NCBI RefSeq assembly: GCF_002741015.1
Contig: NZ_CP016616.1
Coordinates: 417,501 to 481,500 of the forward strand
Source of the DNA: Microvirga ossetica
GTDB lineage: Bacteria; Pseudomonadota; Alphaproteobacteria; Rhizobiales; Beijerinckiaceae
Direction: 5' to 3'
DNA: 64,000 nucleotides
A program made the translations under genes and the position numbers. The notes below the pieces were generated by a model. The model saw nothing but the letters and a program-made list of their open reading frames with translations, was not told where the DNA came from and did not search any database. How positions within the stretch are numbered: the first letter of the stretch is position 1; each line of letters opens with the position of its first letter. Below, piece by piece: positions 12,712 to 62,352 of this stretch.

Positions 12712-12735
12712 CTGTCAAATCTCACAGGCTGACAT
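12712..12735 (+). promoter_or_regulatory. Dispersed oriented motif, upstream of deg
   Basis: CTGTCAAATCTCACAG followed by GCTGACAT, about 76 bp upstream of ATG 12811 and in the orientation of the gene. The next 23 bases also resemble the copy at 21670 (6 mismatches in 47 bases overall). Confidence 0.7.
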
Positions 12736-12810
12736 CGCGACGGGGCGACCCGATGTTCTCACCGACATCATGCCGCCTTCACGCTCGGATTCATTCAAGG
12801 AGTGGGTGCT

Positions 12811-14319
12811 ATGCCGAACAGAAACTCTTTCGCAGCCCGTAAGTGCTCCAAGCGGGCGCTGGCGTCCGTTGCTGCCACCGCTATTATCCTGTCAGGCATT
12901 ACCGCCGGTACGACGCTGGTGGAATCGCGGGCGCCGGCGCTCGCGCAAGATGCCTCATCCTCCCCTACGATGCTTGGCCAAACTGCAACGCGGAACCAAC
13001 TCACGCCGACATTCGCCGACGTCGTGGACAGGGTGAAGCCTGCTGTCGTTGCCGTGCGCGTCGACGTCGAGACTACCAGCTCAGCTGACGACAGGCTTTC
13101 GTCGCGCGAGCTGGACCAGCTTCCGCCGCAGTTGCGCGAGTTGCTCCGTCGTTTCGGCCAGAGCAGACAACCGCAGGTCGGCATCGCACTGGGCTCCGGC
13201 TTCTTCATCTCATCCGATGGCTATGTCGTGACGAACAACCATGTGGTTGAGCACAGTAGAACAGTCCAGGTCACAACAGATGATGGCCGGACACTCGACG
13301 CGAGAGTGATTGGCACCGATCCAAAGACGGACCTCGCGCTCCTGAAGGTTACTGAGGGCGGCAACTATCCCTACGTTCCGCTCGCGAAGGTCACCCCTCG
13401 GGTCGGCGATTGGGTTGTGGCGATCGGCAACCCCTTTGGCCTCGGCGGCACGGTGACCGCCGGCATTATTTCGGCCCGCGGCCGTGACATCGGGGAGAGC
13501 CAGTATGATGATTTCCTGCAGGTCGACGCCCCAATCAATAAGGGTAATTCGGGAGGCCCAACCTTCAATCTCAGCGGTGAGGTTGTCGGTGTGAATACCG
13601 CGATCTACTCGCCTTCGGGCGGCAGCATCGGGCTCGGGTTCGCAATCCCATCCGACACTGTTCACTCAGTCGTCGCGCAGCTCGAGAAAGATGGCAAGGT
13701 CACCCGCGGCTATCTCGGCGTGCAGATCCAGCCGCTCTCAAAGGACCTTGCCGAAGGTCTTGGGCTCGCGACCGAGAAGGGCGCTTTGTTTGGCAATGCA
13801 CAGGAGGGTTCACCGGCCGCCGCTGCAGGCCTGCGAGCTGGCGATGTGATCACAGCGGTCAACGGTGAGCCCATCGCCGACGCGCGTGAACTGTCGCGGA
13901 AGGTGGCAGCGTTCAAGCCGGGCAGCATGGTCGAATTGACGTACCTCCATGGGGGCAAGCAGCAGACGGCGAGCATTACGCTTGGGATCCAGCCGGAGGA
14001 GAAGTCGGCTCAGGCCGAGACGCTGCCGGAGCATGGCCCCCAGCTTGGGCTGGGCCTCGCGCCGGCGGCATCGATCCCTGGTGCCGGCAATAAAGGTGTT
14101 GTCGTGGTCGATGTTGATGCCTCAGGCGCGGCTGCCGCCAGGGGTATTGAGGTTGGGGACGTGATCCTTGAAGTCGCTGGCCATGCCGTCTCGAGCCCGG
14201 CTGACGTCAAGGCAGGTCTCACAAGGGCCCAAAACGAAGGGAAGAAGATCGTTCTTCTGCGCATCAAGAATCAGCAGGGCACACGGTTCGTGCCACTTGG
14301 TTTGGGAACCGTTGGCTAA
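12811..14319 (+). CDS. Deg/HtrA periplasmic serine protease
   Basis: A 502-residue exported protease and chaperone of the DegP/DegQ type that degrades misfolded envelope proteins. A signal peptide ends near APALAQD (about residue 47). The trypsin-like domain has His144 (TNNHVV), Asp174 (DPKTDLALLK) and Ser247 (NKGNSGGP). Two PDZ domains follow (GYLGVQIQPL onward, and GVVVVDVDASGAAAARGIEVGD). ATG 12811 has AAGGAG 8 nt upstream and is preferred over the in-frame GTG at 12802. The gene is monocistronic and preceded by the dispersed motif at 12712, suggesting membership of a shared envelope-stress regulon. It is intact. Confidence 0.93.
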   Translation: MPNRNSFAARKCSKRALASVAATAIILSGITAGTTLVESRAPALAQDASSSPTMLGQTATRNQLTPTFADVVDRVKPAVVAVRVDVETTSSADDRLSSRELDQLPPQLRELLRRFGQSRQPQVGIALGSGFFISSDGYVVTNNHVVEHSRTVQVTTDDGRTLDARVIGTDPKTDLALLKVTEGGNYPYVPLAKVTPRVGDWVVAIGNPFGLGGTVTAGIISARGRDIGESQYDDFLQVDAPINKGNSGGPTFNLSGEVVGVNTAIYSPSGGSIGLGFAIPSDTVHSVVAQLEKDGKVTRGYLGVQIQPLSKDLAEGLGLATEKGALFGNAQEGSPAAAAGLRAGDVITAVNGEPIADARELSRKVAAFKPGSMVELTYLHGGKQQTASITLGIQPEEKSAQAETLPEHGPQLGLGLAPAASIPGAGNKGVVVVDVDASGAAAARGIEVGDVILEVAGHAVSSPADVKAGLTRAQNEGKKIVLLRIKNQQGTRFVPLGLGTVG

Positions 14320-15263
14320 GACCGTACCTCGTCAGTAAAGTTGCTCTCGATGTTGATCCTCGCCGCGACGATGGATGGCGAGCCCTAAGGCGGACGGGAG
14401 CAGCCTGCATTTCGAATGACCGGACAGTCGGGGCTCGCAGGGCCCCAGTTGTCCCGCTCAATGAGAATAAGGAATCCTGAGGCTGGTGCTCGGCGTGGGT
14501 GGTGCCCAGCAGCAGCCTCTCTTAGGTCCGGGATTTCGAACACATCTCAACATGTCCTCGATTGTCGCCGACCCGTTCACGGACCGGATGGCAGGCACGG
14601 TGCACCATAACCTGCGCATAATCCTGTTCCATCATCTGAGCAACTGCGGCGGGCGCTGCAATTCAGGCTGTTGTCTGGGCGTTTGTCCCATCTGCCGCAG
14701 CGCCAATGCCGACTCGGTAGCACGCGCTGTGCCAATGGCTGGAACGCTCCAGATGGGCAAAACCGAGATGGGCTTAGCGAATGGATGGTCGAGGTTGCGA
14801 GCGCTAGGGCGACCTCGCACCTATAAGGATCTTTTTTCATGATCGTTCCGGTAAGACTTCCGCAAGTGAGCGCAGAAGGGTACCAGCCAGAAGATGGACG
14901 TGCCTGCCATAACTCCAGACTTTGATATCTGACAAGGGGCTCGGCGATGCCATAGGCACCAGGAACGGCTCAGAAGATTGATCGGGCATACAATGAGCGA
15001 GGCAGAATGAACCACACGGCCATCACACCCTCCAGCTCCTGGCCTTGACTGCCATGGCTCAGCTGGCAAGAGAGTCTGCGCTCTGGACGCATCCTTCAGC
15101 CGACCCTATTGCCTCGCTGAAGGTTCATGATCTCAACGGGATCGGAAAGGACGATCTCAGTGTGTTGCCCCGATGATGTTCGGCAAGCATGAAACGACAA
15201 GCAGAAGCGGGATAGGACAGGCAAGGCCGAGGTATACGATGCTGCTCTTGTCTCGGGTTTAAG
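14320..15263. other. Non-coding stretch, nothing recognised
   Basis: About 940 bp between deg and the Nramp-like gene. Short frames occur on both strands but none has recognisable protein character, a good ribosome site or a repeat. Confidence 0.5.
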
Positions 15264-16571
15264 TCAAAACGACGTGATGAACATAGCTAGGGCAGCGAGG
15301 GTCATCACCCCCGTCGCGATCCAGCCAACAGCCTGTAGCCATCCCCTGACAGCAAAAGGCCCCATGATATCCGAGCGGCACGTGACAAGCATCATTGTTG
15401 CCATGACAGGGACAGCGATCACCCCGTTGACCACGGCACTCCAAAATAAGGCTTTGATAGGGTTGATCTCACTGAAGTCGATGATGGTTCCGATTAGGGT
15501 CGCTAGGGCCACCGTACCATAGAAGGATTTCGCCTGCATCGGCCGGCGGGAGAACCCAACACTCCAACCACGGGCCTCTCCGATGGCATAAGCAGCCGAA
15601 CCCGCGAGAACAGGGACCGAGAGTAGGCCTGTACCGATAATCCCGAGCGCAAATACGACATACGCGAAGCGCCCTGCAATGGGCCGCAACGCCTCCGCTG
15701 CCTGGGAAGAAGTCTGGATGTCGGTGATCCCATTCACGTTCAGCGTTGCTGCCGTCGTGACCATGATCGCGAGTGCAACGAGGTTCGAGAGAGCCATGCC
15801 GACCAAAGTATCGATCCTGATGCGTTGCAAAGCGGCGTTACCCTGCTCCGGAGAACCGATCAGTGCATGACGGCCCGGGTGCGCACCAATGTCCTCTACC
15901 TCCTCGGCCGATTGCCAGAAAAAGAGATACGGGCTGATCGTGGTGCCGAAGACCGCAACGATGACGGTGAGATAGTCCTTGTCCCATCGCACAGCTGGAA
16001 GCAATAAACCAGACGCGAGCTTCGCCCAATCAATGTGGGTCGTGACCATGACTGCAAAATAGGCGAAGAGCGCCAATGTCAGCCACTTTAGGACAGCCAC
16101 GTACTGCGTGTATTGCAGGAACACCTGCATAGAGACGCAGACCGCTGCAAAGACGACGACGTAGAGCGCCGGTGGGCCGGGTAGGAGCAAGTGGACGGCA
16201 TCGGCCATCGCCCCGAGGTCCGCCGCGAGATTAATGGTATTGGCAATGAGCAGCAGGATCACAATCACCTGGAGAAGCCAATTCGAGTAGTACGTCCGAA
16301 GAACGCCCGCAATGCCGTGCCCTGTGGTGCGCCCCAGGCGAGCGCAGATCATCTGAACCGCTGTCATGAGCGGATAGCTGAACAGCATCGTCCAAGTCAG
16401 CATGTAGCCGAACTGAGCGCCTGCCTGACTGTAGGTGGCGATCCCACTGGGATCGTCGTCCGAAGCACCCGTGATCAGGCCGGGGCCAAGCAGACGGAAG
16501 AGGCGTGGCCTCTTTGAGCCGGGAGTCCGGCCCCAATCCTCTGGATCATCGTCGACGATGTGCGGCTCCAT
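15264..16571 (-). CDS. Nramp-family divalent metal transporter, variant motifs
   Basis: A 435-residue, roughly 11-helix carrier. Helix 1 reads GASDDDPSGIATYSQAGAQF and helix 6 reads FGTTISPYLFFWQ, the positions where canonical MntH/Nramp proteins have DPGN and MPH. Such substitutions occur in Nramp-related carriers whose ion choice differs from Mn/Fe (some plant and bacterial relatives move Al or Mg). The family assignment is good, but the substrate cannot be taken as manganese. The ATG is preceded by a GAGAGGAGG-like site. It is a single gene with long empty flanks. Confidence 0.85.
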   Translation of the reverse strand: MEPHIVDDDPEDWGRTPGSKRPRLFRLLGPGLITGASDDDPSGIATYSQAGAQFGYMLTWTMLFSYPLMTAVQMICARLGRTTGHGIAGVLRTYYSNWLLQVIVILLLIANTINLAADLGAMADAVHLLLPGPPALYVVVFAAVCVSMQVFLQYTQYVAVLKWLTLALFAYFAVMVTTHIDWAKLASGLLLPAVRWDKDYLTVIVAVFGTTISPYLFFWQSAEEVEDIGAHPGRHALIGSPEQGNAALQRIRIDTLVGMALSNLVALAIMVTTAATLNVNGITDIQTSSQAAEALRPIAGRFAYVVFALGIIGTGLLSVPVLAGSAAYAIGEARGWSVGFSRRPMQAKSFYGTVALATLIGTIIDFSEINPIKALFWSAVVNGVIAVPVMATMMLVTCRSDIMGPFAVRGWLQAVGWIATGVMTLAALAMFITSF

Positions 16572-16964: not shown

Positions 16965-17117
16965 CTATGGCCCTGCAGGATAATCCATCTTCAATCCATG
17001 TGCTTTAGCCGCCCCCATCGCGAGGGTCGTTCCAGCGCCGCCGAGATCTATTGCCAAGACCCAGACAAGGAAGAGGATCGTCATCCGCCCGGCCGTCCAA
17101 ATGCTCCGATTGGTCAT
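16965..17117 (-). CDS. Small secreted or membrane-anchored peptide, 50 aa
   Basis: A 50-codon frame with ATG at 17117 and GGGAG about 7 nt upstream. The product has a short basic N-terminus, then a hydrophobic segment MTILFLVWVLAIDLGGAG and a short polar tail ending MDYPAGP. It looks like a signal peptide or single membrane anchor. A copy of the dispersed motif lies 227 bp upstream in the matching orientation, as for other small exported proteins here. No family is known to me. Confidence 0.45.
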   Translation of the reverse strand: MTNRSIWTAGRMTILFLVWVLAIDLGGAGTTLAMGAAKAHGLKMDYPAGP

Positions 17118-17683
17118 GTGATTCTCCCAATGCCTCCTGTTCCAGGCGCAAGCTCATTGCAAGTGGCTTGGTTAGCCACGCCGGTCTGGAACGGTTCAGA
17201 TTTCCCAGTTGGCTGATGCCCGAGAGAAGTGTGTCCGCAGTGCACTATCCTCCAGCTGTCACGCCAGGAGACATTGCCATGGCCTCCACCGAGACGGGCA
17301 CTTTGCCTATGAGAGATATGATGTATTCGGGAGCCGGCGACATCCTGTGAGATTTAACAGACAAGAGCTTCTCGCCTTACGGGGTTATGTCTTCTCGGGG
17401 GCACGATGACGTTCCTGGTTCATCAGGGCTTTGCGGGTACGATTGCGGTGGACGATCGCCTGGAACGCGCACGGTGGACACACTCGTGGCTATATCTTCG
17501 CTGCAGCCGCAGGAACGACTGCTAACTCTTCTCGTGCCCTGCGTATGTTCGAACGGCGGGAATACCAGGCAGGAGCGGAACCGACCTGCACCGGGCGGAA
17601 TGAGGCATTCCCAGAATTGTTTGGCTCGGGCAGAAGTCGCGGCTTCCTTTTCAAGCCCGGGAGCAGCGTCCTGCCGCTCCTCC
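17118..17683. other. Non-coding stretch containing a dispersed motif copy
   Basis: No gene was recognised. It contains the motif copy at 17344. Overlapping open frames around 17431-17748 look like shadows. Confidence 0.4.
17344..17360 (-). promoter_or_regulatory. Dispersed motif, weaker copy
   Basis: CCTGTGAGATTTAACAG matches the reverse form of the motif and lies 227 bp upstream of the minus-strand small gene starting at 17117. The outer GTCAG arm is lost. Confidence 0.5.
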
Positions 17684-18684: not shown

Positions 18685-19038
18685 TCAGCTGTGATTTCGA
18701 CTGTATCGCCTCGTGTTGCTGATCATCTCCACCGCAGCACTCAGTTCTTCCTCACCAAGCTCAACGCATCCATAGCTGTCGATCGTGGCTCCGTCGCTGC
18801 GTGAGAAGACCTCAAACCACAAAGGTGGTAGCGACGAAAGTGCACGTGCTCGAGGAAGCTCCGTGAGTTGAACCTCGATCCCTCCGAACGGTCCCACCGT
18901 TGCAGTCCGACAGTCATACTCATCAGGTTCCGTCACTTCAAGCTTGATATAAGCCTGGACGAGCTCGCGTTCGAGCCATTCACGATCGCTCTCAGCTGAA
19001 GCAGCATGATCCAAGCATTTCCCATTGTATCGGGACAT
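18685..19038 (-). CDS. Hypothetical protein, 117 aa
   Basis: A soluble acidic protein with no signal peptide or membrane segment. Central hydrophobic strands (VGPFGGIEVQLTEL, PPLWFEVFSR) suggest a small alpha/beta fold. The ATG has GAGGAAAGAGA immediately upstream. A strong motif copy (reverse form, 19192-19211) lies about 154 bp upstream in the orientation of this gene, so it may belong to the same regulon as deg. No family is recognised. Confidence 0.5.
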   Translation of the reverse strand: MSRYNGKCLDHAASAESDREWLERELVQAYIKLEVTEPDEYDCRTATVGPFGGIEVQLTELPRARALSSLPPLWFEVFSRSDGATIDSYGCVELGEEELSAAVEMISNTRRYSRNHS

Positions 19039-19191: not shown

Positions 19192-19211
19192 CAGCCTGTG
19201 AGATCTGACAG
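19192..19211 (-). promoter_or_regulatory. Dispersed oriented motif, reverse form
   Basis: CAGCCTGTGAGATCTGACAG, a near-perfect reverse-form copy upstream of the minus-strand gene starting at 19038. Confidence 0.7.
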
Positions 19212-19235
19212 TCACACTGCGGAAGTACAAGGCAA

Positions 19236-19250
19236 GGTCAGATCTCACAG
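19236..19250 (+). promoter_or_regulatory. Dispersed motif core, second nearby copy
   Basis: GGTCAGATCTCACAG, the core in opposite orientation, 25 bp beyond the copy at 19192. The pair could bind cooperatively. Confidence 0.5.
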
Positions 19251-19416: not shown

Positions 19417-20016
19417 TCACCTGGTGATCAGGCCTTGGTCAATAGCCTTGACAACCGCCTGCGTGCGGTTAATGACGTCAAGCCGCTTCATGGCCTGATC
19501 GCAGTGAAAATTGACCGTTCGCTCGCGGATGCCCAGGATAATGGCGATCTCGGACGAGGTCTTGCCACGCCCGACCCAGGTCAGGATCTCGCGCTCGCGA
19601 TCGGTCAGATGAATGTCAGATGGTGGCCCGAACCGGTCATATCGGCGCCGGAGCCTGTTCTCGATCACGGCGCCGAGCATCTCGAAGTCGACAGGCTTAG
19701 TCAGGTAGTCGTCCGCGCCGAGCCTCCGCCCGATCAGCTCGCTGTCCCGGTCACCGAGTGCAGTCAGAAAAACGAATGGGATCTCGGCAAATGCCGATCC
19801 GGCTGCTGCTACCCGCTCCAGAAGCTCGAAGCCAGTCATGCCCGGCATGCGCACGTCGCAGACCACCAAGTCGGGCGGGGTCGATAAGATGGCGGCGAGA
19901 CCCCGCTCGCCATCCGGTGAGCGCTCAACTGTGTAGCCGAGCTCGCTCAGCGCCTCCACCAGAAGGCTCGCCGTCTCGTCGTCGTCCTCGATACACAAGA
20001 TCCTGCTCACTCGCAT
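19417..20016 (-). CDS. LuxR/NarL-type response regulator
   Basis: From MRVSRILCIEDDD the protein has a receiver domain with an acidic pocket (Glu10, Asp11-13), phospho-acceptor Asp54 (VVCDVRMPG), the TALGD segment and Lys in YLTKPVD. A LuxR-type helix-turn-helix follows: LTDREREILTWVGRGKTSSEIA, then GIRERTVNFHCDQAMKRL. It is the cognate partner of the overlapping upstream kinase. An earlier in-frame start at 20046 exists, but homologues normally begin a few residues before the first beta strand. It is a natural candidate for the protein that binds the dispersed motif; that is an inference. Confidence 0.9.
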   Translation of the reverse strand: MRVSRILCIEDDDETASLLVEALSELGYTVERSPDGERGLAAILSTPPDLVVCDVRMPGMTGFELLERVAAAGSAFAEIPFVFLTALGDRDSELIGRRLGADDYLTKPVDFEMLGAVIENRLRRRYDRFGPPSDIHLTDREREILTWVGRGKTSSEIAIILGIRERTVNFHCDQAMKRLDVINRTQAVVKAIDQGLITR

Positions 20017-21634
20017 CCTCCCGCGGTGATGGCCCTGGACCGTCAATCGGCAACGACACCGTCATCCGTGTCCCCCGACCGACCTCGCTGTCGATTCGGA
20101 GGCTGCCCCTATGCTGACGAACGATCAGGTCGACAAGATACAGCCCCACGCCGGTGCCAGGGAGGGTGCCGACGTTACTGCCACGATAAAAACGCTCACG
20201 AACCCGATCGATCTCATCGGGTGGTATGCCCACACCCCGATCCTCAACTGTAATCTCAACGCAGGCGTCCGTTACCTTTGTCACCAGCGTAACAATACCA
20301 CCTTCCGGCGAGTATTTGAAGGCATTCGAAATCACGTTGCTGAAAGCGTAATAGAGGAGTTCCGGGTCGCCCGTGATTTCTTGAGGCAGATCGCCGATCT
20401 CCTCTTCAAGGATATCGCCCATGCCAATCTCGCGATAATAACCCTGGAGATCGCGCAACATCCGGGAGAGATCAAAGCGGCGTGTCCGGGGCTGGGCCTG
20501 TCCGCTCGCTATCTCCATGGCACCGGTAAAGCTGACCACGAGGCTGGTCATCCGGAAGACCGCAGCCCTGATCTTGTGTGCGCGATCGGCAATCTGGCTC
20601 GGAGGGACTTGGTCCTTGGTTGCAAGGAGACGCTGGGCGTGGCCATCAATGCTGGTCAGCGGCGTGCGGAACTCATGCGACATAGTCGTTATGAAGTTGC
20701 GTTGCTCAACCGCGAGCGCCCGCTCCTTCTCGAGGGCCCCCGCCAGAATGTCGGCCTGTGTTGCGAGGCTCTTGCGCGATTCCAGAAGCTCGATCGTGTT
20801 TCGCCGAAAGACAGCGAGTGAGCGTGCCACATCCCCGATCTCGTCTCGCCGGCTCTCGAACGGGACCGAGAAACGCGTGTCGTGGGAAGCGAGGCGCCGC
20901 ATCAGTCCGGCAAGATCGAGAAGTGGGCGCGAGAAGGAGTGCCACAGATAGGCGGTAAGGGTTACAAAGAGGACGAGCATGGCAAGGATCAGGTCCGACA
21001 CGAAGCGCTGCGCTCGCGCGATCGCTTCGGCTGCAGCCTTGCGTGCTGCGTCGGCCTTTGTCTCGGTGAGATCGATCAGGCTGCGAAGACCGTCAGCAGC
21101 CGCTTGAAAGCTCGAGTGCGCCTCCCCCTCGAACAGGGCAGTCGCCGCGTCTCCCTGTCCACCTTGAGCCAACGCTACGATTGCTTGCGCATGTTGGCCA
21201 TGATCAGTCCAATCCTTCAGGAAGCTGTCAAATGCCAGGCTTTCATCACGATCGTGCGGGATCGAGCGATAGCGTTCGACGTCTTGCGTAATTTCATTGA
21301 GAGTCCGCAGCAGATCGTCTGAGCTGGTCGAGATACCTGACGCATCACGGTGGAGCAGAGCCTCAGCCTCCTGCGCCCGAACCGTCGCAATGTGATGGTT
21401 CACCGTCCCCAGCAGCCGGACCGAATCCAGCCAGCGATTGTGGACCTCCCCCGACACGGCATCCACATGGGCAAGCCGATCGAGGCTCAAAACCCGCACA
21501 GTGACGACGGCCAGCACGAAGAGGGCAGCCAGAAGGGCAAGCTTGGCCGGCAGAGAACTGCGTCGAGAAAATAAAGGACGAGACGATCGCATGATCCGCT
21601 CCGCGTGGGCCATTGCATCACGTTTCAGCTTCAT
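19925..21634 (-). CDS. Membrane sensor histidine kinase
   Basis: A 569-residue kinase: a first membrane helix (about 28-50), a roughly 160-residue periplasmic four-helix-like sensor, a second helix (about 212-232), a HAMP domain, then HisKA with His320 (MSHEFRTPL) and an HATPase with SNAFKYS (N box), DRGVGIP (G1) and GTGVGLYLV (G2). All catalytic boxes are present. The C-terminal 35 residues after SLPIDGPG run over the start of the response regulator in another frame; an overlap of about 92-122 nt is unusually long. The start at 21634 lies divergent from the RND pump, with a motif copy between them. Confidence 0.9.
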   Translation of the reverse strand: MKLKRDAMAHAERIMRSSRPLFSRRSSLPAKLALLAALFVLAVVTVRVLSLDRLAHVDAVSGEVHNRWLDSVRLLGTVNHHIATVRAQEAEALLHRDASGISTSSDDLLRTLNEITQDVERYRSIPHDRDESLAFDSFLKDWTDHGQHAQAIVALAQGGQGDAATALFEGEAHSSFQAAADGLRSLIDLTETKADAARKAAAEAIARAQRFVSDLILAMLVLFVTLTAYLWHSFSRPLLDLAGLMRRLASHDTRFSVPFESRRDEIGDVARSLAVFRRNTIELLESRKSLATQADILAGALEKERALAVEQRNFITTMSHEFRTPLTSIDGHAQRLLATKDQVPPSQIADRAHKIRAAVFRMTSLVVSFTGAMEIASGQAQPRTRRFDLSRMLRDLQGYYREIGMGDILEEEIGDLPQEITGDPELLYYAFSNVISNAFKYSPEGGIVTLVTKVTDACVEITVEDRGVGIPPDEIDRVRERFYRGSNVGTLPGTGVGLYLVDLIVRQHRGSLRIDSEVGRGTRMTVSLPIDGPGPSPREDASEQDLVYRGRRRDGEPSGGGAERARLHS

Positions 21635-21669: not shown

Positions 21670-21693
21670 CTGTCAAATCTCACAGACTGACAT
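21670..21693 (+). promoter_or_regulatory. Dispersed motif between kinase and efflux genes
   Basis: CTGTCAAATCTCACAG then ACTGACAT, in the divergent region between the kinase start (21634) and the membrane fusion protein start (21741), oriented toward the pump. It is the closest relative of the copy at 12712. Confidence 0.7.
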
Positions 21694-26663: not shown

Positions 26664-27691
26664 TGCGCGGCTCTACCTGAAACACCACATCCAAGTAGCA
26701 AGGCGTCAGCGGGAGACTACACAATCACTTAAGATCGGCTTGAGCAGCTTCTGCATGCCGGTTAACAAGCCACAGCGCGCTCTCTTTCTGAATATCCCCG
26801 AAACGGACCAGGGTCTCGATGAAGAAGTCGTTCCCGCTGAGGATTGATTAAACACGCGAGAATGCGGTGTGCTGGGCCTTGAGCAGGGCTGCCACAGGCC
26901 CAGAATCTCCAGTTCTATGCTCGCGCATGGGGGCGAGCCGTGCATCCAGGACTTGCAGTCGCTGAACTTCCAAAACGACGAGATTTCTCCTTCTCCGGCC
27001 GAGTCGTGAGGAAACCAAGATCAACCATGTCAAGACGGGAGTCCGCTGCCGGGGAATCGCTCACAATCAGCAACGTCTCTCGCTCCAATCATGTGTCTGG
27101 CGCATAGTCAGTGACTGACGCTCGACACGCCTGCAGTCCGCCTCATTGAAGATCGCGCCTATCGCGTGGATCGAAGGGACCAACTGCGGCAGCACTGCGG
27201 CCTGGGCGACGCCGACTACACCATAGACGAACGCAGGGTAGCCTGGGACGGACGGCGCTGAGCACCGGGGGAGTGATTCGTGTATGATAACACCACACGG
27301 CGATGCTCCGGGCGCCGCCGTATCTTATAATGCACAATCCGTCTCCAGCCCTGTCACATATCACAGGCTGACGGAAGTCCGGAAGTACACCATCTTTCTG
27401 CATGAGTTAATCGGTCGAAGCAGTCGCTGTGGACTTCTACGTCCAGGTGACTTCAACGAAGGACACCCGAAGTTATGCGGTCGGACCCTGCTACTATTGC
27501 CGCTATATGCTTTGCTCGCTCCTGCCTCAGAGCAGGGACCGATGATAGATCCGGCGTGAGCTGCAGTATAGCGTCGACGATGAGCAACCGGCCAAACAGT
27601 TGCAGCTTTTCAACGCGGGACTGCCCACACCGGGCGAGACCTTCAACAGAAGCTCGCCCGACCTGCTTGAGAAGGCAGGAGGATGATCGCC
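26664..27691. other. Long intergenic region with one motif copy
   Basis: About 1 kb in which I recognise no gene. It contains the motif copy at 27351. The short frame ending at 26847 has no recognisable features. Confidence 0.45.
27351..27372 (+). promoter_or_regulatory. Dispersed oriented motif
   Basis: CTGTCACATATCACAG then GCTGAC, about 320 bp upstream of the secreted protein at 27692, in its orientation. Confidence 0.6.
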
Positions 27692-28300: not shown

Positions 28301-28768
28301 TCTGACTGCTGAGGAGCTTTTAGGGGGAAAGACGTTCCGCTGATTAGGTTTGTGAAGTTCTCCTGCAATGCGGACGCCAGTCTTCGAGAACGGTGAAGGT
28401 TGGGCCAAACTTGAGTGATCACTGGTGGTTGACCTCAGTAGAGTGTCCCAGGGATGAACGCCATAAGCCGCTCTCGACCAACGTAGATTTAACAATGGCA
28501 ATGCGCCGGCTGGGAGTGCTCGCCTCCGTGAAGGCGAATTGCAGTCTCTGCGGACGACGTGATCGTCAGATCTCACATGCCAACGAAAGACACGAGAATG
28601 ACCGTGACAATGTGGCAGGCACCTGGAAGATCATCTTCAGTAGGTGAGCACGCTGTCGACCCAGGGGGTGAGTTGAACAGCGCCCACCGAATCCTACGAC
28701 ATTCGCCAAATCGGCGTGTGATGCAATCTGCACTGCAGCCCGTATCGGCAGTTACCTCGGATTCCGTA
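28301..28768. other. Upstream region of rpoH with a weak motif copy
   Basis: The frame of rpoH is open back to 28559, but upstream residues do not resemble the family. The core CGTCAGATCTCACA occurs at 28564-28577, about 190 bp before the chosen start. Confidence 0.4.
28564..28577 (+). promoter_or_regulatory. Dispersed motif core upstream of rpoH, weak
   Basis: CGTCAGATCTCACA keeps the palindromic centre only. The outer GCTGACA arm is missing, so this may be chance. Confidence 0.35.
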
Positions 28769-29704
28769 ATGATGGGCCTGAGACTGTCAGCGCCTATTCC
28801 GTTTCCTGCCAATGAAGGAGGCCTTTCGCGCTATCTCGACGAGATCCGTCGCTTCCCCATGCTCGAGCCGCATGAGGAATACATGCTCGCCAAAAGCTGG
28901 CGCGAGCATGGAGATCGCGAGGCCGCTCACAAGCTCGTGACGTCCCACCTGCGCCTGGTCGCCAAGATCGCCATGGGCTATCGCGGCTACGGCCTGCCGA
29001 TCGGCGAGGTGGTTTCCGAAGGCAATGTCGGCCTGATGCAGGCCGTCAAGCGCTTCGAGCCCGACAAGGGCTTCCGCCTCGCCACATATGCCATGTGGTG
29101 GATCAAGGCGGCGATTCAAGAATACATCCTGCGATCCTGGTCCCTCGTGAAGATGGGCACCACCGCGAACCAGAAGAAGCTGTTCTTCAACCTGCGCAAG
29201 GCCAAGGGCCGCATCTCCGCCTTCGAGGAAGGCGACCTGCACCCCGACCACGTCAAGCAGATCGCCACCCAGCTCGGTGTGACCGAGCAGGATGTGGTGG
29301 ACATGAACCGCAGGCTTGGCGGTGATTCTTCGCTCAATTCGCCACTGCGCGATGAAGGCGAAGGCGGTGGCGAATGGCAGGACTGGCTCGTCGACCATGG
29401 CCAGAGCCAGGAACAGGTGCTCGTCGAGGAGGAGGAAGGCCAGAACAGGCTGAAGGCTCTTCGCGGCGCGCTCTCCGTGCTCAACCCACGCGAGCGCCGC
29501 ATCTTCGAGGCTAGGCGTCTCTCGGACGACCCGATCACCCTGGAGGAGCTCTCCACCGAGTTCGGCGTCTCCCGCGAGCGCGTCCGCCAGATCGAGGTTC
29601 GCGCCTTCGAGAAGATCCAAGAGGCGGTCAAGAAGAACCTGACCCAGATCGAGCGCGATAGGTCGAAGATTCAGGGAAGTCATGGATCCCACGTTTTGAG
29701 ATAG
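28769..29704 (+). CDS. rpoH: Heat-shock sigma factor RpoH
   Basis: A sigma-32-type factor of about 311 residues that directs RNA polymerase to heat-shock promoters. Region 2 is near perfect (HKLVTSHLRLVAKIAMGYRG, EGNVGLMQAVKRFEP, RLATYAMWWIKAAIQEYI). The RpoH box QKKLFFNLRKAK is diagnostic. Region 4 carries LNPRERRIFEARRL and the helix-turn-helix LEELSTEFGVSRERVRQIEVRAFEK. Alphaproteobacteria often carry several rpoH paralogues, and this one sits outside a housekeeping context. The start is uncertain: tandem ATGs at 28769/28772 give a family-like N-terminus, while ATG 28721 adds 16 residues. Confidence 0.93.
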   Translation: MMGLRLSAPIPFPANEGGLSRYLDEIRRFPMLEPHEEYMLAKSWREHGDREAAHKLVTSHLRLVAKIAMGYRGYGLPIGEVVSEGNVGLMQAVKRFEPDKGFRLATYAMWWIKAAIQEYILRSWSLVKMGTTANQKKLFFNLRKAKGRISAFEEGDLHPDHVKQIATQLGVTEQDVVDMNRRLGGDSSLNSPLRDEGEGGGEWQDWLVDHGQSQEQVLVEEEEGQNRLKALRGALSVLNPRERRIFEARRLSDDPITLEELSTEFGVSRERVRQIEVRAFEKIQEAVKKNLTQIERDRSKIQGSHGSHVLR

Positions 29705-32895: not shown

Positions 32896-32917
32896 GTCAG
32901 CCTGCGAAATCTGACAG
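32896..32917 (-). promoter_or_regulatory. Dispersed oriented motif, reverse form
   Basis: GTCAGCCTGCGAAATCTGAC followed by AG, 91 bp upstream of the small secreted protein start at 32805 and in its orientation. Confidence 0.7.
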
Positions 32918-33662: not shown

Positions 33663-33684
33663 CCTGTTAGATCTTGCTGGCTGC
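33663..33684 (+). promoter_or_regulatory. Dispersed motif, diverged copy
   Basis: CCTGTTAGATCTTGCTGG then CTGC. It is oriented toward the remnant gene starting at 33843, about 160 bp away. Confidence 0.4.
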
Positions 33685-35396: not shown

Positions 35397-35690
35397 ACTC
35401 CAACAGGATCTTCGTCGCAACCTGAACAGTGCACCCCGTGCTTGCCCATTAAGCCTTCGATGGGGTCGCCGCAGCGCGCCCGCCGCGATCGGGGAACTCG
35501 GGTGTTCTGCCGCGATATCCCCTGACAGATCTAGCAGGCAGTGGATCGCTACTGACGCTGTTAGCGTTTCACCCGCGACAGCACAGTCACAGCCGATCGA
35601 CCCGCCGTCACCGATGAGCGTGGATATCTGATCGATTGATCGGCTCGCGTACGACTGGCGCGGGACCGCTGGTTGAGAACGAGGTGTGCC
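35397..35690. other. Region upstream of mgtE with a weak motif copy
   Basis: No gene was recognised. A diverged motif copy lies at 35521, about 150 bp before mgtE. I see no obvious magnesium riboswitch fold. Confidence 0.35.
35521..35541 (+). promoter_or_regulatory. Dispersed motif, diverged copy upstream of mgtE
   Basis: CCTGACAGATCTAGCAGG then CAG. The core AGATCT and spacing are kept and the arms have changed. Confidence 0.35.
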
Positions 35691-38084: not shown

Positions 38085-38455
38085 GATATCCTCCTGGAAC
38101 AGTAGATGCCTACCTGCGTGACAGGATGTGTGACTGATCATGCAGGCTATCTTCGATGAGGTCACATCCGCGACAGCATGATTGCAGTATTCCAACCTCT
38201 GCTCTCGGTTGTTTCATGACCACTGGGTAAAGGTGAGGTCGCATGCCCGCGGTGTCAGCCTGTCAAATTTTACAGCTTGAGGACTGAGAACGGCCCACGG
38301 GTTCCTCAACGCTTCAATGCCAGCACTTCAACCTGCGGCGCATAATAGTAAACGCGCCTCTTCCTCACCGTCTCATTCAAGAAGACATTTCTCTCAGTCG
38401 CCGGCAATAAGCGGTCGTGATGCAGAAGATCTTGACGAAAGTGGCTTCTGCGTGC
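38085..38455. other. Region upstream of csbD
   Basis: No gene was recognised; holds the motif copy at 38254. Confidence 0.4.
38254..38275 (-). promoter_or_regulatory. Dispersed motif upstream of csbD
   Basis: GTCAGCCTGTCAAATTTTAC then AG, the reverse form. GTCAGCC and the CTGTCA arm are kept and the centre has drifted to AAATTTT. Confidence 0.6.
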
Positions 38456-40846: not shown

Positions 40847-40869
40847 GTCAGCCTGCAAGATCTGGCAGG
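40847..40869 (-). promoter_or_regulatory. Dispersed oriented motif, reverse form
   Basis: GTCAGCCTGCAAGATCTGGC then AGG. The nearest recognised minus-strand gene (2OG oxygenase) starts about 700 bp away. Confidence 0.6.
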
Positions 40870-41035: not shown

Positions 41036-41059
41036 CCTGTCAGATCTCGCAGGCTGACA
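41036..41059 (+). promoter_or_regulatory. Dispersed oriented motif, consensus copy
   Basis: CCTGTCAGATCTCGCAG then GCTGACA, the copy closest to consensus, 86 bp upstream of the BA14K-like gene start at 41145. Confidence 0.7.
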
Positions 41060-48383: not shown

Positions 48384-48401
48384 CCTGTGACATCTCACAG
48401 G
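48384..48401 (-). promoter_or_regulatory. Dispersed motif, symmetric copy
   Basis: CCTGTGACATCTCACAGG, an almost perfect palindrome 97 bp upstream of the secreted protein start at 48287. Confidence 0.6.
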
Positions 48402-50520: not shown

Positions 50521-51221
50521 AGGCCGCGAGGTGAGCTCTGCGCGCTCCACAGCCAATCCGTGCGCTCAGTCCTGTGGCGGTGGTCCCGTACGCAACAGTC
50601 ACTGGAGAAGGGTCGAGAGCGCAGTACCCACCACCGGCGCGAAGGTAAAGAAGGTACCGCAGGCAGGCGCCGTCGGGTTTCGGCCGCTGGGCAAACTCTC
50701 CTGGAGTGCTGCGGGGCCGCCTGCCTAGGCAGTCAGCTCGCCTGGCCCGTTGCGACGGGGGCGATCGGAACGCACGGAAGAGCTAACACACCGGGATCTG
50801 GCGCGGTGACCCTTCTAGCTGCTAATGGTAGCGGAGTTCCTCACGGCACCGCGGAAAGGCTCGGGGGAAGTCGGGATTGCGCGGCTCGCAGCTAAAATGC
50901 AGGGCCGTCGCAATGGCGAGTGCACGACTTGCTGTTGTGATCCGCAAACTACATAAGAGCGACGCGCTTGAGTGGTAGAAGGATTCAGTCGAAAGCCTCA
51001 AGGATGATGGTGCTGTGACAGACAGGTTGCCGTAGTGCCACTGGCAGACCTGACAGGCTGACATGGTTGATAGATCCTATATTCTGTCTTGACGCACACT
51101 GTTCGCTACTACAAGGGAGCGCAATGGTGACCCTGGCGAAGGCTCTGATGCTGTTTGCGGCTGAGCGCCTGATTCTCGCTTGCGCATCGTTCCGCAATGG
51201 TCACTAGTTGTGGGCTAGAAG
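50521..51221. other. Non-coding stretch with one motif copy
   Basis: No gene was recognised. The motif copy at 51041 precedes the small membrane protein at 51222. Confidence 0.4.
51041..51063 (+). promoter_or_regulatory. Dispersed oriented motif
   Basis: CTGGCAGACCTGACAG then GCTGACA. Three core substitutions; oriented toward the gene at 51222, about 160 bp away. Confidence 0.55.
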
Positions 51222-51790: not shown

Positions 51791-52551
51791 ATGGATCAAG
51801 TGTGCCAGCAGAAGGCGGAGAGGAACGGCGGCTTCTGGGAGACCATTCAAGTCGTCCTCCGGGCACTGCTGATCGCACTTGTGATCCGCACCCTTCTGTT
51901 TCAGCCCTTCAACATCCCCTCAGGTTCGCTGACTCCGTCACTGCTTGTTGACGATTACCTGTTCGTCTCGAAATATGCCTACGGCTTTTCCGGCTATTCC
52001 GTGCCCTTCGGTCTACCTATTTTTCCGGGCCGGATCTGGGGCGCCGAGCCGAAGCGGGGCGATGTCGTGGTCTTCAAGCTGCCCAAGGACAACTCCACCG
52101 ACTACATCAAACGGGTTATCGGCCTGCTGGGCGACCGGATCCAGATGATCGGCGGCGTTTTGCATATCAACGGCCAGTCCTTCAGCGGGAGCGGATCGAG
52201 GATTACAAGACCAGAGATTTCTATGGCCGCCCCGTGGCTGTTCCTCAATACATCGAGATGCTGCCCAATGGTGTGAAGCACCGGATCATCGAAATAGAGG
52301 GCGGCCACGGGGTATGGGACAATACGCTCGTCTACACTGTGCCAGACGAACACATCTTCATGATGGGCGACAACCGGGACAACTCGGACGACTCTCGCGA
52401 CCTGTCGAACGTCGGCTATGTGCCGTTCGAGAATCTCGTTGGTCGCGCCGAAATCATCATCTTCTCGATCGATGACGATGCCGCCGCCTGGAAGGTCTGG
52501 GATTTGCCCTGGACGGTGCGCTGGGATTGGCTGCTCCGACCTGTGACGTGA
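51791..52551 (+). pseudogene. lepB: Signal peptidase I (lepB-like), frameshifted
   Basis: The first frame (51791-52190) gives a membrane anchor, catalytic Ser46 in NIPSGSLTPSLLVDDYLFVS and catalytic Lys107 in STDYIKRVIGLLGDR. After GVLHINGQS the sequence continues in the +1 frame with QRERIEDYKTRDFYGRPVAV, PQYIEMLPNG, then FMMGDNRDNSDDSR and the C-terminal strands to 52551. The joined product, about 250 residues, is full length. A single indel near 52175-52185 breaks it. Signal peptidase I is essential, so another copy must exist, or the indel is an assembly error. Confidence 0.8.
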
Positions 52552-52652: not shown

Positions 52653-52943
52653 ATGACAGTATAGTGGTACATGTTCGCGAAGGGTATCGAGAATAGCTAC
52701 CCGACCATCAAGAGTGGCAGCGTCCGTGTGGACGAGATGGAGAAGTGCGGACATTACGAACATTGGCGGAAAGACTTCGATCTCCTGCAGGAACTTGGTT
52801 TCCGCTATCTGCGTTACGGACCGCCGATCCACCATGTGTGGCTTAGCCCCAACCGGTATGATTGGAGCTTTCCGGATGAGACCTTCGGGGTGCTGAGAGC
52901 TCTCGACGTGGTGCCGATCGCCGACCTCTATCGAACCCCCTGA
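52653..52943 (+). pseudogene. 5' fragment of a second GH1-like gene with TAG at codon 4
   Basis: ATG 52653 is followed by MTV, then TAG, then WYMFAKGIENSYPTIKSGSV and RVDEMEKCGHYEHWRKDF, closely similar to the N-terminal 90 residues of the intact gene at 30107. Homology stops at VVPIADLY, after which unrelated sequence brings a TGA. Both the nonsense codon and the 3' truncation prevent function. Confidence 0.82.
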
Positions 52944-55361: not shown

Positions 55362-55829
55362 TTATCTCTCCACACCATGGGTCATCGAGGCCGCTCCGGA
55401 TCTGTTCCTCCGCCTGAACGCCGTCACGTTGCTTGGAGCCCGGCCCTGGGCCTTCTGGAGCTGGGCCTGGACGAGGGCACCAAAGATCGCGAGCGCCGGG
55501 TTGTCGTGCTGGAACTCGGCCACGTCCTCAACCCAGTTGATCGCCAGCCCGCGGACGCAGATTGCGCAGTTCCAGCGACTGTCATCGCAGGACAGGCGGT
55601 GGATCACCCAGTCCGGCAGTTCCCAGCCGATCAGCCAGAAGCCCAGGTCGACCCAGGCCTCCGCCCCGATCAGGCGCTGCACGAGATCGTGGGGCTGGAT
55701 GCCCGACTTGAGCCGGGGACAGGCGTATTGCAGCACATCCGCCACGAGGCTGCCCGTCGGCTGGCAGGTCGTCTCGATCCGCCTCAGAAGCGAGCGGAGA
55801 TCGCGCTCCAGGTTTTGTTTCGGCCACAT
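55362..55829 (-). CDS. Conserved-looking protein coupled to kup
   Basis: A soluble 155-residue protein starting MWPKQNLERDLRSLLRRI, with LVADVLQYACPRLKSGIQPH, EAWVDLGFWLIGWELPDWVI, an HRLSCDDSRWNCAICVRGLA cluster with three Cys, and an Ala/Gln-rich helix. The stop codon is immediately followed by the kup ATG, indicating translational coupling and perhaps a regulatory role. A diverged copy at 33843-34088 shows that the family is present more than once. ATG 55829 is chosen; 55844 adds five residues. Function unknown. Confidence 0.6.
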   Translation of the reverse strand: MWPKQNLERDLRSLLRRIETTCQPTGSLVADVLQYACPRLKSGIQPHDLVQRLIGAEAWVDLGFWLIGWELPDWVIHRLSCDDSRWNCAICVRGLAINWVEDVAEFQHDNPALAIFGALVQAQLQKAQGRAPSNVTAFRRRNRSGAASMTHGVER

Positions 55830-56234
55830 CTTGGCTATCCACACAGGTCAGAACCAGGCCGGACAACCGGTGCCCCTCGGACAACAATCGGTTCCTGACC
55901 TTTCAGATCAGACATGGCCAGGGCCGCATAAAAAATCGATTGGGAGGTGAAAGGCTCGATCTAAAGGCTGCTGCTTTGCAAACATATTGCCCTCAACAGT
56001 TTGCGTCTGCGGTATGCGCAGACACGACAAGTCAGTTTGGTGCTTCCGACCGGAGCGTCAGCCTGCGAGATCTGACAGGGGATCGGCGTGCTCGTCTGGT
56101 CTAGGTTGTGAGGGTGAAGTCAGCAAGGTTTGCGGCTTGCGGTTGCGTCCGTCACCAGGGGAATGCACGAGATCTAGGGCGCTCGAAAAGGAGCGCCAAA
56201 TCAGTTCATTGGCAGGGGAGCAGTGGGGAAGGCA
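55830..56234. other. Divergent intergenic region with one motif copy
   Basis: Lies between the kup operon and the small gene at 56235. It holds the motif copy at 56057, oriented toward kup. Confidence 0.5.
56057..56079 (-). promoter_or_regulatory. Dispersed oriented motif, reverse form
   Basis: GTCAGCCTGCGAGATCTGAC then AGG, one of the best copies, 228 bp upstream of the kup-operon start at 55829 and in its orientation. Confidence 0.7.
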
Positions 56235-56453: not shown

Positions 56454-56463
56454 CAGAGTTCCG

Positions 56464-57622: not shown

Positions 57623-57644
57623 CCTGTCAGATCTCCCAGGGTGA
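57623..57644 (+). promoter_or_regulatory. Dispersed oriented motif upstream of bdhA-like gene
   Basis: CCTGTCAGATCTCCCAGG then GTGA, 57 bp upstream of ATG 57701 in the orientation of the gene. Confidence 0.6.
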
Positions 57645-57700: not shown

Positions 57701-58229
57701 ATGGAGGCTTCAGTGACGCTTCGTTCCAAAACAGCCGTCATGACAGGCTCGACCAGGGGCATCGGCCTCGCCATCGCCCGGGCTCTCGCCAAGGAAGGGG
57801 CCAATGTGGTCATCAACGGCTTCGGCGATGCGGGTGAGATCGAGAAGACGCGTGCCGGCATCGAGAGCGAATTGGGCGTCAAGGCGATCTATTCGCCGGC
57901 CGACACGTCGAAGCCGCACGAGATTGAGGAAATGATCCGCCTTGCCGAAAAGACATTCGGCAGCGTCGACATTCTCGTCAACAATGCGGACATCCAATTC
58001 GTCTCGCCGGTGGAGAATTTCCCGGTCGAGAAATGGGACCAGATCATCGCCATCAACCTGTCATCCGCCTTCCATGCGATCTGCGCCGCGGTGCCGGGCA
58101 TGAAGGCACGCAAATGGGGCCGCATCATCAACACGGCCTCCGCCCATTCGCTCGTGGCCTCACCATTCAAATCGGCCTATGTCGCCGCCAAGCACGGCAT
58201 CGCGGGTCTGACCAAGACGGTGGCGCTGG
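57701..58229 (+). pseudogene. bdhA: 3-hydroxybutyrate dehydrogenase-like SDR, cut by IS6
   Basis: A short-chain dehydrogenase with TGSTRGIGLAIARALAKEGA (NAD-binding), an NNAD motif at the usual NNAG position, catalytic Ser in INTASAHSLVASP and the Tyr-Lys pair in SAYVAAKHGIAGLTKTVAL. The order and residues fit BdhA, which interconverts 3-hydroxybutyrate and acetoacetate in polyhydroxybutyrate turnover. After TKTVAL the IS6 left end begins and the last roughly 80 residues (substrate loop and tetramer interface) are lost. The Gly-to-Asp change suggests further decay. Confidence 0.82.
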
Positions 58230-59043
58230 GGCGCCGTCAACTTAACGAGGCGGGATAGGTTGGTCTACCACCGGTCATCGGATCAGAGGCCAGCGGCGAC
58301 GCCAGTCACTTCGTTCCAAACCCGAAAGGCTTAAGCCCAAGACGTGCGATGCTCAGCGGCGTTGATGTTGGCGGGACGGCGGAAGAGGTTGGCAACCTGC
58401 TCGTGGACTGAGAGGAAGTATTGCGCCTGCCCAGCTGACTTGAAGCGCTTCATGATCCGCTCGCGTCGTCGGGTCGGCTGATGGCTGTTTTCTGCTCGGT
58501 TGTTCAAGCCCCGATGTTGTCGGTGTTCAACTCCGGGCATCACCGCTCTTTTCGCGACAGCATAGCTGGCCAGCTTGTCTGTGATCAGCACGCGCGGTGC
58601 CCTGCCCTGCTTCTTGAGCAACTTGCGCAGCAGCCGCTTGGCAGCCTGCGCATTCCGGCGGATCTGAACCAAGATGTCCAGCACGACCCCATGTTGATCC
58701 ACGGCTCGCCAGAGCCAGTGCTTCCGGCCGCCGATGCTGATCACCATCTCATCTAAGTGCCATTTGTCTTCGGCTGCCGGAACACGCCGACGGATCTGGT
58801 TCGCGAAGCCGTGACCGAACTTCAGCGCCCATTGCTGGACCGTCTCATGGCTGACTAGGATGCCTCGGGCCGCTAGCCTCTCCTCAACCATGCGCAGGCT
58901 GAGTGGAAACCGAAAGTACAACCAGACGGCATGACTGATCACTTCAGCCGGGTAGCGGTGGCGAGCATAACGGGGATGACGGGTCTTCTTCATCCCTCAC
59001 ATATGTCAGGATCCCGTCACCTCCGGGTTAAATTGACGGTGCC
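58230..59043 (-). mobile_element. IS6-family insertion sequence
   Basis: About 814 bp bounded by imperfect inverted ends: GGCGCCGTCAACTTAAC at 58230-58246 and, complemented, GGCACCGTCAATTTAAC at 59027-59043. It encodes one transposase. The 8-bp flanks (TGGCGCTG and TATCCAAC) differ, and the rest of the interrupted SDR is not found on the far side, so the insertion was followed by a deletion or cointegrate resolution. Confidence 0.8.
58331..58993 (-). CDS. IS6-family DDE transposase
   Basis: A 220-residue transposase starting MKKTRHPRYARHRYPAEVIS with an N-terminal HTH (LSLRMVEERLAARGILVSHE) and the DDE core: WHLDEMVISIGGRKHWLWRA (first Asp), VLITDKLASYAVAKRAVMPG (second Asp) and NNRAENSHQPTRRRERIMKR (Glu). 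The length is slightly short of the usual 230-240, but all catalytic residues are present, so it may be active. It could also supply transposase to the IS6-end MITEs at 12277 and 56464, although its own ends differ from theirs. Confidence 0.92.
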   Translation of the reverse strand: MKKTRHPRYARHRYPAEVISHAVWLYFRFPLSLRMVEERLAARGILVSHETVQQWALKFGHGFANQIRRRVPAAEDKWHLDEMVISIGGRKHWLWRAVDQHGVVLDILVQIRRNAQAAKRLLRKLLKKQGRAPRVLITDKLASYAVAKRAVMPGVEHRQHRGLNNRAENSHQPTRRRERIMKRFKSAGQAQYFLSVHEQVANLFRRPANINAAEHRTSWA

Positions 59044-60857: not shown

Positions 60858-60876
60858 GAGGCCAGCAAGTGGCCTC
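60858..60876. terminator. Hairpin downstream of tctC
   Basis: GAGGCCA-GCAAG-TGGCCTC, a 7-bp perfect stem 67 bp after the tctC stop. No T-run on the tctC strand, so it may be a processing or Rho-linked hairpin. Confidence 0.35.
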
Positions 60877-60942
60877 AAACCCTGGTCGCATCGTCCGAGG
60901 TGATTGGTTGGTCAATTGGATGAGTTCGCTTCAACCCAATGA

Positions 60943-61914: not shown

Positions 61915-61978
61915 TTCCTGTCTCCCATGGTTCTTCTTCGACACGTCACGTTGGTTGGTCGTGGATCGCACCTGAGAC

Positions 61979-62305
61979 TCAATCGGTCACTGCCACCTGA
62001 CGAAAGGCTTCACGGTGATAGGTGCGGAGTTTGTCCCGGACCTGCCGTTCGGAAAACGGCAAGCCGCGAACCGAAAGATCACGGGTGATCTTTCCGACGA
62101 TGTCCTCGTCGCCGTCGACCTCGAAGTCGGCCCGGTGGACCTCGGTGGCATAGGAGGAAAGATCGGCGTTCGACAAGCCAAGGAGGCGGCCGGCCCAAAG
62201 GCCGGCGAGAACGTTCCGACGCGCGATCACGCTGTCACGGGTGTCATTGTCGAGACACCAGGATGACAAGTTCTGATTGGAAGTCTTTGTGCCTGTCACA
62301 TTCAT
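61979..62305 (-). CDS. DUF1476 protein, F1-ATPase zeta-subunit-like
   Basis: A 108-residue protein with the DUF1476 pattern DTRDSVIARRNVLAGLWAGR, then LLGLSNADLSSYATEVHRAD, FEVDGDEDIVGKITRDLSVR and RQVRDKLRTYHREAF. In Paracoccus the zeta protein of this family inhibits ATP hydrolysis by F1FO ATPase through its N-terminus. Most alphaproteobacteria have one housekeeping copy; this one sits directly upstream of tctC (65 bp) on the same strand, an unusual location. It may be a paralogue with another role. A motif copy lies 32 bp upstream. Confidence 0.8.
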   Translation of the reverse strand: MNVTGTKTSNQNLSSWCLDNDTRDSVIARRNVLAGLWAGRLLGLSNADLSSYATEVHRADFEVDGDEDIVGKITRDLSVRGLPFSERQVRDKLRTYHREAFRQVAVTD

Positions 62306-62336
62306 CGAAGCTCTCCGTCAAAGGTTCAGCAGCCGG

Positions 62337-62352
62337 CCTGTCGGATCTGACG
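62337..62352 (-). promoter_or_regulatory. Dispersed motif, weaker copy
   Basis: CCTGTCGGATCTGACG, 32 bp upstream of the DUF1476 start at 62305, in its orientation. Confidence 0.45.

Follow-up and report, generated by a model that had tools for sequence, protein, structure and literature searches.

We analysed a 64-kb stretch of Microvirga ossetica (NZ_CP016616.1, here contig C1, positions 417501-481500; hereafter the window), which represents 0.66% of the 9.63 Mb genome scanned and carries a two-component system together with many copies of a 16-bp palindromic box joined to promoter-like elements. The regulator gene (19417..20010, minus strand; the start is uncertain, either GTG at 20010 or TTG at 20046) encodes a response regulator with an N-terminal receiver and a C-terminal GerE/LuxR-type helix-turn-helix (HTH), both recognized in its 209-aa form (PF00072, 1.9e-21; PF00196, 1.6e-16). 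It is overlapped by the gene of a sensor histidine kinase with 4HB_MCP_1, HAMP, HisKA and HATPase_c domains (19925..21634, minus strand). This domain order, with an adjacent, overlapping kinase as putative partner, is that of the NarL/FixJ type. No close paralog of the regulator was found in its own genome, where the next best protein has 39% identity (E 4.6e-28), and the kinase-regulator pair occurs in four other Microvirga. In M. lupini (L060, 10001-11311) the RND pump stands next to a further kinase match that covers only part of the protein (residues 1-437, 88% identity), in addition to the complete pair.

When the regulator HTH was compared with solved structures, quorum-sensing regulators (RhlR, SdiA, CviR, QscR, LasR) made up the first 12 of 24 matches, with RhlR at 5.6e-14 (an entry also listed as an engineered RhlR variant) and 1.5e-12 (another RhlR entry); response regulators such as VraR ranked after them. 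Sites of RhlR have the form CT(N12)AG according to the available part of PMC2018727, and the box of the window is likewise CT-N12-AG. Such likeness of the domain to RhlR does not prove identical specificity. The initial annotation had singled out this LuxR-type protein for testing, and it is the best candidate reader of the box, though as a two-component protein (receiver plus GerE) that has no autoinducer-binding domain.

Box copies and promoter architecture

Searching both strands of the window with CTGTCAGATCTCRCAG and up to three mismatches gave 30 strand-wise matches, as compared with 1.5 expected and a maximum of 6 among 100 shuffles, which bears out the recurrence of the motif. Merging the strands left 20 sites, whose mismatches were counted against CTGTCARATCTCRCAG on the better strand. 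None of them (0/20) lies within a gene of our list, an incomplete set of open reading frames (ORFs) picked by codon usage, Pfam and conservation in relatives, in agreement with the initial annotation. All 12 copies that it had called clear were recovered, as were five of its weaker ones, at 17345 (1 mismatch), 19235 (2), 28563 (3), 33664 (3) and 35522 (2); the copy proposed before a DUF1476 gene at 62337 exceeds three mismatches and was dropped. Three further sites, at 14920, 29892 and 51656, were absent from that list and have 3 mismatches each. Rfam at gathering thresholds and a tRNA search returned 0 matches, and thus no RNA element.

We defined core sites by a box with at most one mismatch or by at least 5/7 letters of the adjoining GCTGACA (n = 12). 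Boxes 38260 and 51041 have 3 mismatches each, yet a complete GCTGACA, and box 48385 has 2 mismatches with only 3/7 letters of it. All core sites (12/12) are outside listed genes. For nine of them a gene on the same strand begins no more than 300 nt from the predicted transcription start; random placement gave 2.1 such sites on average and as many as 9 in 1 of 5000 trials. The orientation toward a downstream gene that had been claimed for the copies holds for these nine; for the other three, 40853, 41037 and 51041, the distance is 668-699 nt.

The promoter elements were examined by aligning 32 copies, drawn from the window and from four relatives (M. vignae, M. lupini, M. terrae and M. oryzae), that were selected on the box plus at least 5/7 of GCTGACA. 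A second conserved block, which had not been selected for, reads C, A/C, A, T, C/T, T over columns 39-44, counted from the first letter of the box. Its information content was reached by 0/2000 rotations with the 10 window copies and by 0/2000 with all 20 sites. The box abuts a -35 (GCTGAC at 16-21), which is followed by a 17-nt spacer and the -10 at 39-44, placing the box centre near -43 from the predicted transcription start. The GCTGACA arm, part of which (CTGACA) had been described as the arm of an outer inverted repeat, is best read as the -35 rather than as a second operator half-site, and both roles can hold.

The alphaproteobacterial RpoD layout is CTTGAC-N17-CTATAT in the accessible text of PMC8844928; the spacing of the box promoters fits it, the letters only in part. 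For RpoH2, the portion of PMC4843759 at hand gives CTTGCC-N15-16-CCTATCT. The -10 letters share features with CCTATCT, without its T at column 40 (0/10 window copies, 3/32 of all copies). Measured against an RpoH-dependent promoter (CTTG-type -35, CCTATNT -10), the -10 matches partly and the -35 does not.

Beyond these elements, similarity among the 10 window copies was at or near that of shuffled sequence (upstream z 0.6, spacer z 2.3, downstream z 1.4). The copies do bear promoter elements, as implied by the term promoter-carrying repeat in the initial annotation, but they do not look like one repeat because little is shared beyond box, -35 and -10. At several boxes an additional element, CCTTAACCCC, was noticed by eye on the upstream side; it was rejected, since no column from -40 to -2 exceeded 0.25 bits over all copies; at 21670 it is read as the kinase-side -10.

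A similar outline emerged when promoters were compared with their orthologous or co-located counterparts in M. lupini, M. vignae, M. terrae and M. massiliensis. Over 18 such comparisons, identity was 91% in the box (261/288), 88% in the -35 (95/108) and 79% in the -10 (85/108), and fell to 57% in the spacer (175/306) and to 42-46% in the flanks (upstream 334/720, downstream 248/596). The pairs were picked for a box in both members, a bias toward the box, and some have a common ancestor; the -10 and the spacer were not picked on. The -10 is poorly kept in three pairs, those of mprF and 40853 with M. vignae and that of kup with M. lupini, and in the last of these the gene behind the box differs.

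Distribution across the genome and the genus

All eight copies with at most one mismatch in the whole genome (8/8) fall in the window, within 45 kb (contig 430212-475139), so that the motif, described earlier as dispersed, is not dispersed on the genome scale. With up to two mismatches, 16 of the 29 strand-wise matches are in the window, and a reversed control pattern gave 5 genome-wide; at exactly two mismatches the split is 8/21 in the window and 13/21 elsewhere. Of 298 genomes of the family, M. ossetica among them, all others had 2 matches or fewer at one mismatch. The box is thus a feature of this island. Transposases IS66 (10462-12132) and DDE_Tnp_IS240 (58331-58942) lie just beyond the boxed stretch and may mark the island edges. 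In the same family genomes CTATCAGATCTCGCAG is a repeated match across many members, possibly part of a conserved gene.

The regulator is patchy among close relatives, occurring in 5 of 48 Microvirga genomes, M. ossetica included (E 1e-50). Scanning these 48 with CTGTCARATCTYRCAG and one mismatch, we found 10, 17, 2, 11 and 10 matches in the five regulator-bearing genomes and 0-2 in each of the other 43 (11 in total). Clusters of boxes, defined as two matches within 20 kb, occurred in 5/5 genomes with the regulator as compared with 0/43 without it, a count that ignores kinship and that favours the earlier suggestion of an operator for a shared regulon. In all five, the distance from the start of a box is 49-52 bp to the kinase start and 1673-1676 bp to the regulator.

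The number and surroundings of the boxes vary between these loci. M. massiliensis has three boxes around the pair in an 80-kb stretch, where others have many. A 40.6-kb plasmid stretch of M. terrae carries 8 boxes near the same pair (matrix score at least 15), mostly beside different genes by position (trpC, a CBS protein, cytochrome bd, a multicopper oxidase), and has in common with the window a 117-aa ORF and a relative of a 225-aa ORF. Noncoding ends of synteny blocks tend to lie within 35 bp of a box: 7/25 with M. lupini (null 1.5; 3/5000 reach it) and 7/22 with other species (null 1.3; 0/5000). Some blocks share genes and are hence not independent, and a smaller set without 4/18 and 5/21 of the blocks gave 6/21 (6/5000) and 5/18 (21/5000), with 3/6 for M. 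lupini blocks of at least 80% identity (22/5000). Such ends may simply mark the outer edge of conserved promoters.

A box occurs within 2 kb upstream of 9/20 regulator loci; that of Indioceanicola is weak, and the M. organophilum and G175 loci are apparently one and the same. A 40-kb plasmid stretch of M. oryzae (regulator 67%) has its sole match, at three mismatches allowed, just before the kinase. The Indioceanicola locus (50%) has one weak box with 3 mismatches, M. organophilum (45%) has two palindromic boxes before the kinase with 2 mismatches each, and G175 (45%) has two boxes and a third, perfect palindrome on the same 43-kb contig. Among distant relatives sampled from the family, class and order, regulators are 46-55% identical and the box is not found in all. 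A longer related palindrome, GTCTACTGTNANNNNTNACAGTAGAC or a close form, lies 2.1 to 3.4 kb away in G161, G078 and Cupriavidus metallidurans and 5.1 kb away in G089; Aminobacter has just a weak one, and in 6 loci none was found. The related regulator loci that bear GTCTACTGTNANNNNTNACAGTAGAC or a close form (L130, L135, L137 and L075) suggest that the operator may change with the regulator clade.

Box sites and predicted targets

The box before the kinase (21670..21685) lies between the divergent kinase-regulator operon on the minus strand and a plus-strand RND pump (MFP, 21741-22931; AcrB-like, 22928-26023). At lower coordinates, box 12712..12727 (plus strand; -35 gctgac, -10 CGATGT) is predicted to serve DegP/HtrA (12811-14319). 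On the minus strand, 17345..17360 precedes a conserved 50-aa ORF (16965-17117), with Nramp (15264-16571) further on along the same strand, and 19196..19211 precedes the conserved 117-aa ORF (18685-19038). A second, partial box without a -35 (19235..19250, plus strand) lies 39 bp from 19196 in the opposite orientation, both being downstream of the regulator gene. The initial annotation had rightly named it as an exception with no plus-strand gene nearby, together with 40853..40868 (minus strand; -10 CCATTT), which is 668 nt from the nearest listed minus-strand gene, a 2OG-Fe oxygenase (39526-40149), and is present in M. vignae too.

Further along the plus strand, box 27351..27366 (-10 CCATCT) precedes a 205-aa ORF (27683-28300), and a weak box with 3 mismatches (28563..28578) precedes an rpoH (sigma-32) gene copy (28769..29704, plus strand; TIGR02392, 374.3 bits against a cut-off of 323.1). 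This copy is 97% identical over 294 residues to the one at C1:1791220, and in its region just a short stretch matches M. lupini. Box 32902..32917 (minus strand; -10 CAATCT) and its target, a 91-aa ORF (32530-32805) that by eye is putatively secreted, are also present in M. lupini, M. vignae and M. massiliensis. Peptidase_C93 (33989-34597) is the predicted target of a weak box with 3 mismatches (33664..33679, plus strand), MgtE (35691-37061) that of a box with 2 mismatches and no clear -35 (35522..35537, plus strand), and CsbD (37914-38084) that of a box with 3 mismatches and a full -35 (38260..38275, minus strand). Box 41037..41052 (plus strand, full -35) is assigned to MprF/LpiA (41770-44433) and AcvB (VirJ domain; 44430-45839) at a distance of 682 nt, and the mprF orthologue in M. 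lupini and M. vignae has a box upstream as well.

The near-symmetric box 48385..48400 (minus strand), which has no -35, precedes the 225-aa ORF (47610-48287), whose M. terrae relative (46%) stands behind a weaker box (position weight matrix score 15.9). Box 51041..51056 (plus strand; 3 mismatches, full -35) is 699 nt from signal peptidase I-like ORFs (51791-52551), where the domain is split over two overlapping ORFs (51791-52276, 52234-52551) and looks interrupted. Box 56063..56078 (minus strand) is predicted to serve a 155-aa ORF (55362-55829) and Kup (53445-55361), and 57624..57639 (plus strand; -10 CCACCT) an SDR (57701-58258). Close behind core boxes thus stand DegP, the RND pump, Kup, CsbD, the SDR and several small ORFs, and behind weaker ones MgtE, Peptidase_C93 and the rpoH copy, a predicted target set whose theme is envelope, cation and acid stress. 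Elsewhere in the window, ORF 52671-52943 appears to be a short, incomplete copy of the GH1-like protein 30107-31423, the two having a similar start (ENSYPTI...GSVR(I/V)DEMEKCGHY).

Proposed regulatory circuit and alternatives

The geometry of box, -35 and -10, the confinement of the box, the conservation of its promoters, its co-occurrence with the regulator and its fixed position before the kinase can be read from the DNA directly. Together they point to the motif being, very probably, the operator through which response regulator 19417-20010 would activate the stress genes of its island. The kinase would sense some stress and phosphorylate the regulator, a dimer of which would bind the palindromic 16-mer CTGTcArATCTcrCAG and activate transcription in class II fashion. 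This site abuts the -35, and its centre lies some 43 bp ahead of the predicted transcription start. We infer binding, the direction of control, the signal and the sigma factor. The 21670 box would serve both the kinase-regulator operon, by autoregulation, and the divergent RND pump, and the remaining boxes would serve stress and envelope genes of the same island. As the theme of the gene content is envelope, cation and acid stress, our guess is that the signal may be one of these.

Several observations weigh against this proposal. Core boxes 40853, 41037 and 51041 have no listed gene within 600 nt, and 13 of the 29 matches with up to two mismatches lie outside the island in M. ossetica itself. 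Boxes at one mismatch also occur away from the clusters in M. lupini (6/17 on other contigs), in M. terrae (3/11 on C1 and not on the C2 plasmid) and in M. vignae (2/10 on contigs without a cluster). Finally, no box was found in the 4.5 kb scanned upstream of the regulator at seven loci (G251, G125, G861, G958, G648, G215, G089), a scan that does not always cover the kinase promoter because in several distant loci the kinase is on the other side or in the other orientation.

Among alternatives, a promoter-bearing interspersed repeat of the repetitive extragenic palindromic (REP), bacterial interspersed mosaic (BIME) or miniature inverted-repeat transposable (MITE) type, spread by duplication, would explain why a single region, bordered by transposase genes on either side, holds many copies that are nearly identical. 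However, the flanks and spacers of the window copies are at or near shuffled similarity, conservation ends at functional positions, and no copy with at most one mismatch lies elsewhere in the genome; because of these unrelated flanks and the confinement we rejected it as extremely improbable. The CT-N12-AG form would also fit las/rhl-type boxes read by the autoinducer-binding LuxR protein of the genome. One Autoind_bind protein is encoded at C1:3762015; the HTH that immediately follows it shares 49% identity with that of the regulator over 61 residues, the highest non-self identity listed. Yet Autoind_bind proteins occur in 44/48 Microvirga, whereas box clusters are confined to the 5 genomes that encode the response regulator; in M. 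massiliensis (G682) boxes are present and an Autoind_bind match is lacking, and no box-like site lies in the 3.4 kb around the Autoind_bind gene. An acyl-homoserine lactone (AHL)-dependent LuxR protein as box reader was rejected on this distribution across the 48 genomes, and such quorum sensing is very unlikely.

That the regulator represses, its box near -43 overlapping RNA polymerase contacts and blocking transcription until a signal arrives, is compatible with a box that directly adjoins the -35, and the possibility counts against activation. A palindrome near -43 fits activation, being at the usual class II site, and departures from the RpoD consensus, as seen in both -35 and -10, are common in activator-dependent promoters; with both features of the activator type, repression seems unlikely. 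Somewhat likelier, though still not probable, is that the promoters need an RpoH-type sigma factor, whichever protein reads the box, be it the response regulator or a different one; the rpoH copy of the island would then make this a two-key regulon. This copy is itself preceded by a weak box, and the -10 has C at column 43 in 7/10 window copies and 16/32 of all copies (A in 0 and 3), like RpoH2 CCTATCT and unlike RpoD CTATAT; hexamers at the same distance on the kinase side differ by eye (TAAGGT, CTAGGG, TAAAAT, CTAGAA, TTAAGC, TAAGCC). Against it, the T at column 40 expected for both RpoH and RpoD is lacking in nearly all copies, the -35 GCTGAC is nearer to RpoD CTTGAC than to either RpoH form, and the rpoH copy has no full-length match in the M. 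lupini, M. vignae, M. terrae and M. massiliensis stretches examined. Four groES loci yielded no strict RpoH promoter for comparison, and RpoH and RpoD motifs resemble each other according to the accessible portion of PMC3616915.

Under control by the response regulator, the island looks like a portable, self-regulated gene set. We consider it rather doubtful, if conceivable, that it is a self-wiring regulon in which modules of box, promoter and gene gathered around one pair and are exchanged between islands or plasmids, with the box promoter as the joint and maybe an RpoH-type second key; the idea arises because synteny blocks tend to start or stop at boxes and because the M. terrae boxes mostly precede different genes. 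On the main proposal, a single 45-kb stretch would hold a complete, testable circuit, from sensor and regulator through operator and promoter geometry to the list of targets. The arrangement also suggests a way in which a stress island, once acquired, may stay self-controlled, with intermediate states in the genus, from three boxes in M. massiliensis to many in others.

Comparison with known systems

In the DosR dormancy regulon, too, a single NarL/FixJ regulator goes with many matching palindromes that lie upstream of stress genes in clusters; operator, host and gene content differ from those described here. With the FsrR-TcrA-TcsA system of Ensifer medicae the likeness lies in the target genes, since lpiA-acvB is there acid-induced under a dedicated regulatory system (PMC9048898). 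The available part of that paper states that this system is absent outside E. medicae and that the regulator of lpiA-acvB acid induction in other rhizobia is unknown, and the kinase-regulator pair is a candidate controller of these genes in Microvirga.

The las/rhl boxes of RhlR and LasR, as presented in the part of PMC2018727 consulted, have the CT-N12-AG palindrome in common with the boxes of the window, and the DNA-binding domain of the regulator is closest to those of RhlR and SdiA. Unlike RhlR and LasR, the regulator carries a receiver in place of an autoinducer-binding domain and has a putative partner kinase, and its boxes do not track AHL-LuxR genes; a quorum-sensing-type DNA-binding domain and an rhl-box-like operator would here be tied to a two-component system.

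SsrA-SsrB of Salmonella pathogenicity island 2 is, like the present pair, a two-component system of an acquired island, with a palindromic operator at island promoters and upstream of its own operon, in the excerpted text of PMC2837388, which also reports 256 binding peaks and a genome-wide motif search. As in that system, the regulator here is patchy and the predicted operator stands at island promoters and before the kinase-regulator operon. Differences lie in the operator, which for SsrB, in the same excerpt, is an 18-bp palindrome of 7-4-7 form that is degenerate and not strictly spaced from the start, whereas the boxes described here are near-identical, keep a fixed distance to -35 and -10 and, with at most one mismatch, are found in the window only (0/8 outside it). 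General Pfam scans of the window proteins found no type III secretion genes, unlike the SsrA-SsrB island. Among the matches listed from open-licence PubMed Central literature, neither this operator nor a regulon of Microvirga is described in any title or opening of an abstract. An acquired two-component system that rules its own island is of a known kind; this case is set apart by a quorum-sensing-type HTH that goes with an rhl-box-like operator, by how many near-identical sites lie close to promoters, and by the confinement of these sites.

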